Positions 5,036 to 11,173 of a stretch of 11,173 nt of DNA are shown here, in pieces. The DNA lies in NCBI GenBank assembly GCA_018432645.1, contig JAHDSP010000336.1, forward strand, positions 1-11,173. The letters are read 5' to 3'. The position numbers were made by a program, and so were the translations under genes. Under the pieces are notes generated by a model. That model was not told the origin of the DNA. It did not search any database and worked only from the letters and a program-made list of their open reading frames with translations. The first letter of the stretch is position 1. The number at the start of each line of letters is the position of its first letter. The DNA is from Bacteroidales bacterium (lineage in GTDB: Bacteria > Bacteroidota > Bacteroidia > Bacteroidales > DTU049).

Positions 5036-5430
5036 GGTTCTATAATGTTTCGTATGGGTAAATTATTTTACCACAAAGAACATGAGTTATAAATTAAAGT
5101 TGATTAGTGATGAGATAAGGAGTTTAGTAGGATATTAGTTGTAAATTAGTCCACAAATGTACACAAATAACCAAAAATAAAATTCATCCCGTGAGATAAC
5201 TAATTATTCTTCTTTTAATGTTTCTTTTACTATATATACTATATATCTCACGTGATAAATTCTAATATCCTTTAATCCCATAAATCTCTTTTTAGACAAT
5301 TAATTTCTATCGTTCTCTGTGTTCTTTTTGGATTCTTTGAGAACTCTGTGGTTAATATTTAACGGTCTAAAATTCATTTTTATAAAATTATTCTTCTTTA
5401 ATCTCTAACCCTATAAAACGTTATAGAACC
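5036..5430. mobile_element. MITE-like palindromic non-coding element, copy 1
   Basis: This 395-bp stretch between lipB and the next gene has no plausible reading frame and is built as a nested palindrome. The ends GGTTCTATAATGTTT (5036-5050) and AAACGTTATAGAACC (5416-5430) pair at 14 of 15 positions. Inner arms follow: AGGATATTAG near 5129-5138 with CTAATATCCT near 5262-5271, then an 18-nt arm ending CGTGAGATA (left) with TATCTCACG (right), 16 of 18. The left arm holds about 43 nt with no partner on the right, including CCACAAATGTACACAAAT (5151-5168). Other parts are ACCACAAAGAACATGAG (5070-5086), its degenerate counterparts at 5313-5354, and a perfect 6-bp hairpin GGTAAA/TTTACC (5057-5072). 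The left terminus matches copy 2 (8352-8681) at 21 of 27 positions. Flanking octamers AGTTTTTT and AAATTTTT agree 6 of 8, a possible decayed target duplication. Confidence 0.6.
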
Positions 5431-8343: not shown

Positions 8344-8351
8344 ATTAGTTT
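8344..8351. repeat. Left 8-bp target-site duplication (ATTAGTTT) of element copy 2
   Basis: ATTAGTTT directly abuts the left end of the 8352-8681 element and recurs without mismatch at 8682-8689 against its right end. With this boundary the two terminal repeats align without gaps, which supports a true duplication made on insertion. Confidence 0.6.
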
Positions 8352-8681
8352 GATTCTATATCGTTTTGAGTGGGTAAAGATTAGTTTTTTCCAATAATTA
8401 GCTTATAAAAACTTTAATCTATTACTCATCACTCAACGCTCATTATTCCTAAACTTCTAAATTCCTCAAAATTAATTTATAGTTTATGGTCATTTGTGTG
8501 CATTTGTGGACAATAAATAAAACCCCGCAATGTATATAATTTTATCCACAGATTTACACAAATTAATACTGTTGATTTAGATATATTTGTGCTCATTTGT
8601 GTTTATTTGTGGATTAATAACAACAATTGGACAGTTAAATATTAATCTAAATAATTTACCCACAATAAACGTTATAAAACA
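8352..8681. mobile_element. MITE-like palindromic non-coding element, copy 2
   Basis: This is a 330-bp non-coding stretch between rho and the S41 protease. Its 27-nt ends, starting GATTCTATATCG (8352) and, read inward on the other strand from 8681, TGTTTTATAACG, pair at 20 of 27 positions and share a perfect GTGGGTAAA. The left end matches that of copy 1 (5036-5430) at 21 of 27. A perfect 8-bp duplication flanks it. Inside are TTACTCATCACTCA (8419-8432), related to a TGATGAG stretch in copy 1, and three copies of a TTTGTG repeat that can form alternative hairpins. No transposase is encoded, so it is non-autonomous. The 8-bp duplication and termini with a G(G/A)-T-TCT start and a GTGGGTA core recall ISL3-family insertion sequences, but that link is inference. 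Confidence 0.68.
8492..8614. repeat. Three TTTGTG-type repeat copies able to form rival hairpins
   Basis: ATTTGTGTGCATTTGTGGA (8492-8510) and ATTTGTGTTTATTTGTGGAT (8595-8614) are direct copies. ATCCACAGATTTACACAAAT (8544-8563) lies between them in inverted orientation. The middle copy pairs with the left one at 16 of 19 positions and with the right one at 17 of 20, so only one of the two stems can form at a time. A related unit, CCACAAATGTACACAAAT, is in copy 1 at 5151-5168. Confidence 0.65.
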
Positions 8682-8689
8682 ATTAGTTT
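8682..8689. repeat. Right 8-bp target-site duplication (ATTAGTTT) of element copy 2
   Basis: Exact repeat of 8344-8351, adjoining the right terminus of the element. It ends 19 bp before the -7 box of the S41 protease gene, so it occupies the place where the -33 element of that promoter would be. Confidence 0.6.
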
Positions 8690-8724: not shown

Positions 8725-10296
8725 ATGAAACGCTCAAATCTTTTTATTTGGATAGGAATTAGCCTTACTATAGGTATAATTTTAGGTTGGATACTAAATA
8801 ATAGACAACCAAGATTTAATTTGTCCACTAACGAAGGGAAAATTTATGAAATTATTAAATATCTAGAAAAGAATTATGTAGATTCTGTGAGTTATAAACA
8901 ATTAGAAGATTTATCTATAGAGAAATTGCTCTCATCATTAGACCCACACTCCACCTATTTAACTAAAGAAGAAATAATAGCTAGTACAGATCCAGTATTG
9001 GGAGAATTTGAAGGCATAGGTATACAATTTAGAATGGTGAAAGATACTGTTAGAATAATATATGTAATACCATATGGCCCAGCATTTCTAAAAGGCTTAA
9101 AAGCAGGAGATAAAATTATAGAAGTAAATGGCAATCCTATTGCTGGTCAAAAGATTAAAGATATAGAAATCGTAAAAATGCTAAAAGGACCTAAAGGAAC
9201 TAAAGTAAAGCTAGGAATAAAACGTGAAGGATATGATGAGATACTACATTACGAGCTAACAAGAGATGTGATACCATTATATACAGTAGATGATTCATTT
9301 TTAATAAATCCTCAAACTGGTTATATACGAATAAATAGTTTTTCATCAAATACAGCAGAAGAATTTAAATCAGAATTAAAAGATCTTAAAAACCGATATC
9401 AAATAAAAAATTTAATTATCGATCTACGAGATAATGGAGGAGGGGTTTTAGAAAGTGCAGTAGAAATAGCAAATATTTTTTTACCTAAAGGAGCATTAAT
9501 AGTTTACATTGAGGGACAACATAGACCAAGAAAAGATTTTTATGCATGGGGAGATACGTTGGGAAAAGATCTAAATGTTGCTGTATTAGTAAATCAATTC
9601 ACAGCATCTGCATCTGAAATAATAGCTGGCGCCTTACAAGATAATGATAGAGCAACTATAATAGGTAGGAGAACTTTTGGCAAAGGACTAGTGCAAGAAC
9701 AAATAATGTTAAAAGATTCTACTGCACTGAGAATAACGGTTGCTAGATATTACACACCATCAGGTAGATGTATTCAACGTCCATACAATGAAGGTTATGA
9801 AAAATATTTTTTAGACTACTATGAATCTATTATAGACACTACTAGCTTACATTCATTAATAAAAAATATAGATACAGTAAAATATTATACAGTAAACGGT
9901 AGAGTAGTTTACGGCAACGGAGGAATAATGCCAGATACAATTGTAATAAAAGATTATGATATACCAATACTATCATATTCAAAAATATTAAATTCACAAA
10001 CATTTTTTGATAAATTAGCTGATTTTGTTCAAAATAATAGGCAAGAATTATTAAAACTCTATCCAAATGAAGATGATTTTGCTAAACAATATAAAATTAC
10101 AGATGAACAAATGAAGACATTACTAGGTGATAGTTATTATTACATAGGGAAACAATACAAGAGTACTTTTGCCAAAATAATAACAAGTTATATTGCTAGA
10201 GAAATATATTCACCATCGGCATATATAAAGGTTAGCTATCCAATAGATAAATGCATACAGACTGCGTTAGGAATATTAAAGACAGAGGGTAAGTAA
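8725..10296 (+). CDS. S41-family C-terminal processing protease (CtpA/Prc type)
   Basis: This 523-residue periplasmic serine protease is anchored by one N-terminal membrane segment (about 7-24). It has an N-terminal helical part ending SLDPHSTYLT, a PDZ domain (about 95-180, with GPAFLKGLKAGDKIIEVNG), then the S41 core: LIIDLRDNGGG (230-240), catalytic Ser295 in TASASEI and Lys320 with Gln324 in TFGKGLVQEQ. The final 120 residues are a C-terminal extension common in Bacteroidota members. Family members trim or degrade periplasmic and secreted proteins from the C-terminus; the substrate here is unknown. The ATG at 8725 is chosen because MKRSNLFIWIGI begins the anchor and follows a TAATTTTG box. 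The 46 codons upstream in the same frame are mostly element-derived sequence and are unlikely to be translated. The gene appears to stand alone. Confidence 0.94.
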   Translation: MKRSNLFIWIGISLTIGIILGWILNNRQPRFNLSTNEGKIYEIIKYLEKNYVDSVSYKQLEDLSIEKLLSSLDPHSTYLTKEEIIASTDPVLGEFEGIGIQFRMVKDTVRIIYVIPYGPAFLKGLKAGDKIIEVNGNPIAGQKIKDIEIVKMLKGPKGTKVKLGIKREGYDEILHYELTRDVIPLYTVDDSFLINPQTGYIRINSFSSNTAEEFKSELKDLKNRYQIKNLIIDLRDNGGGVLESAVEIANIFLPKGALIVYIEGQHRPRKDFYAWGDTLGKDLNVAVLVNQFTASASEIIAGALQDNDRATIIGRRTFGKGLVQEQIMLKDSTALRITVARYYTPSGRCIQRPYNEGYEKYFLDYYESIIDTTSLHSLIKNIDTVKYYTVNGRVVYGNGGIMPDTIVIKDYDIPILSYSKILNSQTFFDKLADFVQNNRQELLKLYPNEDDFAKQYKITDEQMKTLLGDSYYYIGKQYKSTFAKIITSYIAREIYSPSAYIKVSYPIDKCIQTALGILKTEGK

Positions 10297-10417: not shown

Positions 10418-11173
10418 ATGAAGACTTTAGTCGATAACATTGATAAGCATCTGTCCATGAGTAAGGAAGATTCCCAAGCCTTCTACGATAATCTCTACGA
10501 TTTCCTGTTAGAGAACGAAGCAGACGCAGTAGATTACCAAGGTCTAAAAATTCAAAGTACTCCTCCACTATGTCCAAATTGTCGTAGCAACGATATTGTA
10601 AAAAATGGCAAACAAAAAGGTATGCAAAATTATCTTTGCAAACATTGTGGCAGACAATTTAGAATTACCACTGGAACTTTTGTGTATCGATTACAGAAAC
10701 CACAACTTATGCTCGAGTACATTCGTTGTATGGTTGCAGGTAAAAGTCTTAGAGCTTGTGCTAGAGAGATTGGCATTAGTCTGCCAACAAGCTTCACCTG
10801 GCGACACAAAATTCTCGCTGCTTTGAAGAATTTTGACAAAAATGTCAATTTCTTTGGCATAGTAGAAACAGACGAATTGCTGATGGATTATTCTGAAAAG
10901 GGAAGAAAATATTCTAGTGCCAAAGAGATGAAACAAGCAATGAGAAAAAAGCCAAAGAAGGTTGCTGTAATAGTTGCTACAGATAGATGTGGAAATATAT
11001 TATTCAGAAACACTGAGAACAAAAGAGCAAAGCGAGAAGACATCGAGAAGTTTCTAAAAGGTAGAATAACAGAAGATGAAGTTTTATGTACCGGTACCAA
11101 ATACGCATTTAGACATATAAGAAAGAGCAAAGTGAAACACAAAGAGATTGTAGGAGCCAAAAAGAAAAAACGA
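10418..11173 (+). CDS. IS1595-like transposase, 3' end outside the window, probably inactive
   Basis: The frame from ATG 10418 stays open to the right edge (252 codons). Residues 52-77 form a zinc ribbon: Cys52-x2-Cys55 in LCPNCRSNDI and Cys74-x2-Cys77 in LCKHCGRQF. A helix-turn-helix-like stretch follows (KSLRACAREIGISLPTS, 109-125), then the start of a DDE nuclease domain with D152 in VETDELLMDYSEKG and VAVIVATDRCGN (182-193). This order is that of IS1595/ISXO2-type transposases. The second catalytic Asp is expected in a CTD-type motif at about residue 226, but the sequence reads VLCTGTKYAF with Gly226, so the enzyme is likely dead unless alignment differs. The gene is clearly richer in G+C than its neighbours and uses codons such as CTG, GTC and GCC, which suggests acquisition from outside. 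The inverted repeats were not identified. Confidence 0.85.
   Translation, partial: MKTLVDNIDKHLSMSKEDSQAFYDNLYDFLLENEADAVDYQGLKIQSTPPLCPNCRSNDIVKNGKQKGMQNYLCKHCGRQFRITTGTFVYRLQKPQLMLEYIRCMVAGKSLRACAREIGISLPTSFTWRHKILAALKNFDKNVNFFGIVETDELLMDYSEKGRKYSSAKEMKQAMRKKPKKVAVIVATDRCGNILFRNTENKRAKREDIEKFLKGRITEDEVLCTGTKYAFRHIRKSKVKHKEIVGAKKKKR

Follow-up and report, generated by a model that had tools for sequence, protein, structure and literature searches.

Between two bacterial genes of a Bacteroidales genome lies a 330-bp segment (8352–8681) with repeated ends and a duplicated flanking word, and the question it raises is what kind of element this is, what moved it, and from what larger element it may descend. 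The window, by which we mean the whole stretch of 11,173 nucleotides that was analysed, is contig C64 of an assembly of 2.46 Mb in 572 contigs, a bin with a stated contamination of 7.14%. An initial annotation, prepared from the letters of the window, had described the segment as a non-coding MITE with an exact 8-bp target duplication and gapless 27-nt ends, had named a matching copy at 5036–5430, and had suggested mobilisation by an ISL3-type transposase encoded elsewhere.

Results

The 330-bp element and its empty site

The left terminal repeat (8352–8378, forward strand) reads GATTCTATATCGTTTTGAGTGGGTAAA, and the right one (8655–8681, reverse strand) reads TGTTTTATAACGTTTATTGTGGGTAAA as its reverse complement; the two pair at 20 of 27 positions without a gap, as the initial annotation had it. 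The flanks are identical copies of ATTAGTTT (8344–8351 and 8682–8689), so that the 8-bp duplication is indeed exact. When the family 15-mer GGTTCTATAACGTTT was searched for with up to three mismatches, the window gave four matches, which are the four ends of its two elements, and none elsewhere, while shuffled windows averaged 0.53 matches and 0 of 200 reached four. The absence of a protein within 8352–8681 was likewise reproduced, as only one listed open reading frame of at least 60 aa overlaps the element, and it is the forward-strand S41 peptidase gene read from an earlier TTG start, ahead of its ATG at 8725. No Rfam model matched the window at its gathering score.

The orthologous spacers between rho and the S41 peptidase gene were inspected at 5 of 12 loci, those with an S41 identity of at least 76%. 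Two of them (L127 and L124) read AAG-ATTAGTTT-TTTATTTA, with one copy of the target word and without the element, and thereby present the clean empty site for which the initial annotation had proposed to look among relatives. The spacers of L128 and L126 are also without the element, as is L125 within the 295 bases upstream of its gene. The named relatives of the S41 peptidase are from Bacteroidales MAGs, the nearest being 'Rikenellaceae bacterium DTU049' at 95% identity.

A family in the genome and the genus

The genome contains dozens of members of the element's family. Blastn returned 90 pieces for the 330-bp element and 135 for the 395-bp one (several pieces per copy), and the exact end 15-mer was counted 61 times, its reversed control not once. 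From 114 loci we collected 43 end pairs spaced 213–711 bp apart, after removal of 13 pairs that enclosed a smaller pair and with exclusion of pairs above 800 bp (including the 922-bp element described below) or at locus edges. An exact 8-bp duplication accompanies 13 of the 43, against 0.25% of mismatched pairs, and duplication lengths of 4–7 and 9–12 are found in 0 to 2 of the 43; the other 30 pairs are without an exact 8-bp duplication, and some of the 43 look false and were kept in the count. The search of the genome with the ends thus yielded the further duplicated copies that a non-autonomous family, as originally proposed, should have. Congeners added exact duplications in 4 of 12 further end pairs (rows counted by hand). 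MITE DNA is matched in 4 of 5 same-genus genomes and 0 of 24 others, and the 27-nt end pattern in 4 of 393 genomes of the order, namely three of this genus and G118; IMG/VR holds 0 stretches with the end pattern. Terminal inverted repeats, a target duplication, shortness, want of a transposase gene, many copies and an empty site are therefore all found in the 330-bp element, and its identification as an ISL3-ended MITE, an ordinary kind of element, is well supported.

The second member of the window (5036–5430, 395 bp) has the arms of the 230-bp class, between which additional modules lie. Its terminal repeats (5036–5062, forward; 5404–5430, reverse) pair at 21 of 27 positions and are flanked by AGTTTTTT and AAATTTTT. 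As such, its description as a matching copy stands with regard to the common ends but not otherwise, as the flanks form no exact duplication and the interior is that of another subclass with extra modules. Read from the sequence, the word TTACCACAAAG (5068–5078, forward) corresponds to the left arm, and the words TCTCTGTGTTC..GAACTCTGTGGTTAATA (5313–5356, forward) to the right arm, of the repeat bracket that surrounds GxxExxY genes (see below). At L127 the 395-bp element is absent beside the orthologous gene, the upstream side there being non-orthologous, and the comparison with G004 covers one side of the lipB gene only. In this genome, the MITE interiors at L031, L018, L045, L052, L057, L087, L006 and L007 are mosaics of small modules, including ATCCTTTAATCCC..CAGTTCAGACAATT, CCCTGACCTTTAGGTCAGGG, CCCCGTGAGATA palindromes, arrays of GAGACTGGG and GTGATTAGT, and a TATCCTGTTAAAT..ATTTAACAGGATGAA palindrome embedded in the CACAAAGTTCACAAAG arm.

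ISL3 remnants with nearly the same ends

Matches to the ISL3 transposase family (PF01610) in this genome consist of a degenerate copy (C427:840–1503) together with pieces at the contig edges of C310 and C352. The left terminal repeat of the 330-bp element is identical at 25 of 27 positions to the 5'-side end of the C310 copy, and the right one at 22 of 27 to the 3'-side end of the C310 and C352 copies (and also at 22 of 27 to the 5'-side end), the best score elsewhere in the window being 18 of 27. The ISL3-type character ascribed to the ends is accordingly supported by remnants in the same genome. An 8-bp duplication together with ends like those of a resident ISL3 is what an ISL3-mobilised element would display, and an ISL3-type apparatus supplied from outside the 330-bp element is its most likely means of movement.

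As to the proposal that the transposase lies elsewhere, ISL3 remnants are present, but a complete ISL3 gene with these ends was not found, the copies of this genome being deleted or cut by contig ends and PF01610 being matched in 0 of 9 others (eight relatives and the genome of L127). The left ends of C310 and C140, cut by the contig ends, encode MNSKEIFSLALNIEKPW shortly before the second-aspartate region (NIVFDKFHV), which by-eye comparison with a complete ISL3 protein from G111 indicates to be an internal deletion. The same arrangement, an N-terminus shortly before the second-aspartate region, is seen in C310, C140, C352 and C427; the frame is open where visible in C310 and C140, and such a truncated transposase could perhaps act as an inhibitor. 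Similar left ends in G004 and G118 run out within 150 bases of contig edges (7 loci inspected), which is what fragmentation of a multi-copy IS during assembly should produce. With a 64-aa N-terminal ISL3 peptide as query, 5 of 295 order genomes gave matches, and in all but one these were fragments or copies at contig edges. The exception, in G111, is a complete 418-aa ISL3 (PF01610 E-value 6.7e-71), 49% identical over the matched part, with one end unrecognisable. As the assembly holds only internally deleted or contig-edge copies, we infer an autonomous ISL3 partner.

Members that carry a GxxExxY gene

The only match to the GxxExxY family (TIGR04256) in this genome sits within a 922-bp member of the MITE family (C56:1674–2595), bounded by the family ends and by an exact duplication of AATAATTT; its GxxExxY reading frame, of 126 aa, is intact. 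In the congener G005, a 579-bp member with the same ends holds a different GxxExxY gene, 31% identical to that of C56; its flanks TATTTTTT/ATTTTTTA have seven bases in common, in a register shifted by one. IS ends, a passenger gene and no transposase are thus found in both.

The 213–290-bp class of one subclass aligns to the 579-bp element minus its gene. The 280-bp copy L085 is identical to the G005 element at 240 of 271 positions, with the gap lying within the gene, and coding nucleotides from both gene ends are retained in L085 (82), L059 (79) and L004 (58). L085 and L059 keep the first codons and the last ~20 codons, L059 reading KFNVILLKDRTKRLKNGTL-stop where G005 reads NFNVILLKDGIKRVINGTL-stop (read by hand), while L004 has a different junction. 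Among the 18 copies of 213–243 bp, 16 align to nt 93–105 of the G005 element and resume at nt 448–452, one common junction within the blur of local alignment, with at most 39 nt of the 3' end of the gene left; L010 belongs to the 330 class and L079 resumes 20 nt later. Given the differing junctions and the coding remnants from both gene ends, the class arose by at least two, probably three, deletions, one product of which was amplified.

The 330-bp element of the window aligns to the 922-bp element across 318 bases, of which 288 (90.6%) are identical, and the alignment is broken by a single large gap and by minor ones. The C56 element has the arrangement R–gene–R, in which R is a repeat containing words like CACAAATGCACACAAATG and ATTTGTGGA; the window element has a single R (8474–8601, reverse strand, converted by hand from positions 81–208 of the reversed element). 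Copies of the 330 class have a single R and 0 coding nucleotides (6 edge nucleotides in L023). This class would therefore correspond to a 922-bp-type element that lacks the gene and one of the repeats beside it, and recombination between the repeats would be the simplest reading of the loss; as no gene sequence is kept, however, the gene could instead have inserted into R.

The GxxExxY protein

The C56 protein scores 134.6 bits against TIGR04256 (cut-off 35), and that of the relative L169 also matches PF13366. Residues E32, Y35, D72, E82, K84 and Q96 are common to 40 aligned GxxExxY proteins, a layout that we take to be that of a PD-(D/E)XK active site. An AlphaFold2 model (mean pLDDT 93, pTM 0.85) submitted to Foldseek gave four matches with E ≤ 0.001, all chains of 4ic1 (SSO0001, a Cas4 protein); LHK-Exo and lambda exonuclease come next in the ranking, and the TM-scores are modest (0.53–0.59 for 4ic1) with high rmsd. 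TIGR04256 is assigned to the PD-(D/E)XK superfamily, and the protein is predicted to have the corresponding nuclease fold. A sequence search of the PDB gave nothing significant. The family is very common, with at least 7984 matches among the 7999 scored candidates listed for one query. We know of no role for GxxExxY proteins, and a full-text search of the open-licence literature found the name mentioned only in passing.

Repeat brackets around GxxExxY genes

The 230-bp-class arms (TTACCACAAAG...CTTTGTGGTTAA) are made of words that are also found around GxxExxY genes. A strict word, CTNTGTGNNCTNTGTGGTTAA, occurs at 7 places in this genome and in 32 of 393 genomes of the order, from 30 genera (control hits, 0); the bracketing words reach far beyond the range of the ISL3 ends. 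A GxxExxY gene is present in 31 of the 32 word-bearing genomes (G068 has the word and no match) against 20 of 48 word-free ones (Fisher, 1.7e-7), the latter being a non-random set taken from the start of the list with G004 added, and 2 of the 51 matching genomes lying below the family cut-off.

The two 350-nt flanks of each gene were then compared by their best direct or inverted local alignment. A score of at least 25 was reached at 15 of 26 GxxExxY loci (4 of 30 having been omitted for short flanks), 0 of 20 distant windows and 2 of 67 ordinary genes (Fisher, 1e-8), and no alignment at that score was found at the other 11 of the 26 loci. Both ordinary-gene exceptions trace to L185, where copies of one neighbouring gene stand to either side of the GxxExxY gene; this duplication accounts for the two exceptions and perhaps for L185 as well. 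Shared flank 12-mers are direct at 9 of 24 GxxExxY loci and inverted at 4 of 24; in 20 distant windows the corresponding counts are 1 and 0. By eye, clean inverted repeats flank the gene at L209, L189 and L196, and at L208 a complete gene-less palindrome lies at each side. L189 (G210, contig C15) is a very compact unit, with the inverted repeat TTGTTACACGAAATTCCACGAAG flanking the gene. A list of words, drawn up after the loci were inspected, matched at 12 of 30 loci against 1 of 102 positions.

Away from GxxExxY genes, from where 42 dispersed words were picked, an inward partner lies within 300 nt upstream of 12 (11 of 14 in G149 and G252, and 1 of 28 elsewhere, in G154), and 7 others, all in G210, have the partner downstream instead. 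That 0 of 40 word regions contain a GxxExxY gene is partly by choice, as the places were picked away from known ones. At five plasmid-borne GxxExxY loci, two pass the score (Gemmatirosa and Prevotella nigrescens), two below it show words by eye, and one has words on one side only. The plasmid genes of Gemmatirosa, Bacteroides finegoldii and Bernardetia (L219–L221) adjoin CTCTGCGG/CTCTGTGG-type words by eye. A search of the open-licence literature for the bracketing words found no relevant paper, the one relevant-looking match being PCR primers.

Discussion

The explanation that we consider likely is that of a non-autonomous, ISL3-ended element moved in trans, in a family whose larger members carry a GxxExxY gene and whose short members have lost it. 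An ISL3 transposase supplied in trans would recognise the 27-nt ends (GGTTCTATAACG-N6-GTGGGTAAA) and insert the element at A/T-rich targets, duplicating 8 bp. The larger members, with the same ends, would hold a GxxExxY gene of predicted PD-(D/E)XK fold in place of the transposase, bracketed by internal repeats, and would represent the mobile insertion cassette (MIC) form; the short members would have lost that gene and then multiplied. In the 330 class the loss would presumably have come about as the internal repeats recombined or slipped, and the class would not have been a target into which the gene inserted. The ends, the duplication, the empty site, the copy number, the gene-bearing members and the coding remnants of the 213–290-bp class are observed directly, and to these the explanation would add ISL3 movement in trans and gene loss in the 330 class. 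Counting against it are the failure to find a complete ISL3 gene with these ends, the 30 of 43 end pairs without an exact duplication, the want of gene sequence in 330-class copies and the contamination of the bin.

Other readings have to be weighed against this one, and they differ mainly in what is made the mover and in which came first, the MITE or the gene. Members of the IS1595 family are conspicuous here, with 45 matches in the genome, one of them at 10418–11173 of the window itself, where the contig end cuts the gene and leaves the 5' part of the transposase; the 8-bp duplication is also compatible with such a mover, as the target duplication length of that family fits 8 bp. However, an end pair like that of the MITEs (at least 12 of 15) surrounds the IS1595 gene at 0 of 20 loci scanned, 8 of the 20 having both flanks, and at nine loci the flanks carry other end-like sequences (TGTTTAAAACA..., ...TTTACAGTATG... 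and TATAGAATAAATATG..., the ends of IS1595 not being delimited), the sole partial likeness being TTCTATAACATTTA in the opposite orientation. As the window ends match ISL3 remnants directly, we rejected IS1595 as the mover and regard it as highly improbable. The IS1595 copies of the genome have at least three kinds of end-like flanks. That the GxxExxY protein itself mobilises the elements, the ISL3-like ends being incidental, gains something from the frequent bracketing of its genes by repeats across the order and from the conserved active-site residues of a predicted nuclease; but the 8-bp duplications and the 27-nt ends track the ISL3 remnants, and those ends were found in only 4 of 393 order genomes, the bracketing word in 32 of them, and we consider this quite improbable.

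The order of events is a separate matter. ISL3 MITEs that lacked the gene and had R or CACAAAG words may have come first and the GxxExxY gene been captured later, for which speaks the single R, with no coding remnant, that 330-class copies have where C56 has R–gene–R. The coding pieces from both gene ends in L085, L059 and L004, with at least two junctions, are those of deletion and not of a state before insertion, and secondary capture is in our estimation unlikely. A somewhat better though still doubtful prospect is that GxxExxY genes and CACAGAG/CACAAAG-type words form widespread tiny mobile units, a nuclease-based counterpart of REPIN/RAYT systems, in which the protein would act on the words, the gene would move between them or home into them, and gene-less palindromes would be the offspring; here such a unit would have ridden into an ISL3-ended element, of which the MITEs of the window would be the wreckage. 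Against this wider idea count the GxxExxY loci whose flanks fall short of the score, the word-bearing G068 in which no GxxExxY match was found, the word-free genomes that do have the gene, and the small number of dispersed words with an inward partner.

The non-autonomous, gene-losing ISL3-ended element that we favour has parallels among several known systems. An MIC consists of IS-type ends enclosing a passenger gene, without a transposase, which is the form of the 922-bp and 579-bp members; these are unlike other MICs in that the passenger is a GxxExxY nuclease-like gene with bracketing repeats of its own, and we know of no MIC with such a passenger. MICs depend on a transposase for their mobility (PMC6542083). 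The ISL3 transposon Tn7546 has ends of 11 bp, GGGTCTTCGGA, and duplicates 8 bp of its target, AAAATAAG (PMC9782665), and with it and the ISL3-family ISs the present element shares an 8-bp A/T-rich duplication, ends that start with GG and a link to an ISL3 transposase; it differs in being 330 bp long without an internal transposase gene and in the sequence of its 27-nt ends. BrickBuilt and other MITEs of Porphyromonas gingivalis are, like these, Bacteroidales MITEs with internal repeats, and their ends are common to full ISs; in those, however, the ends are of IS5 type and the duplications irregular, and members bearing a nuclease gene are not described in the available text (PMC4596501). Dispersed small palindromes that also flank the gene of a DNA-processing enzyme are a likeness to REPIN/RAYT systems (PMC3116915). 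RAYTs are tyrosine transposases, whereas GxxExxY proteins have a predicted PD-(D/E)XK fold and the mobility of their repeats is putative. The bracketed gene is not the tyrosine (HUH) transposase gene of a REPIN/RAYT system: it belongs to TIGR04256, and the fold of its model is nearest to SSO0001 and lambda-type exonucleases.

Both the parentage of these MITEs, from an element carrying a GxxExxY gene, and the repeat-bracketed GxxExxY unit look new. For an orphan protein family, the presence of intact copies within elements that have terminal repeats and a target duplication provides a tie to mobile DNA, and the element-borne copies, the coding remnants in MITEs and the bracketing repeats across an order provide a testable context in which to consider it. 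They also offer a possible origin for the CTTTGTG/CTCTGTG words scattered in Bacteroidales genomes.
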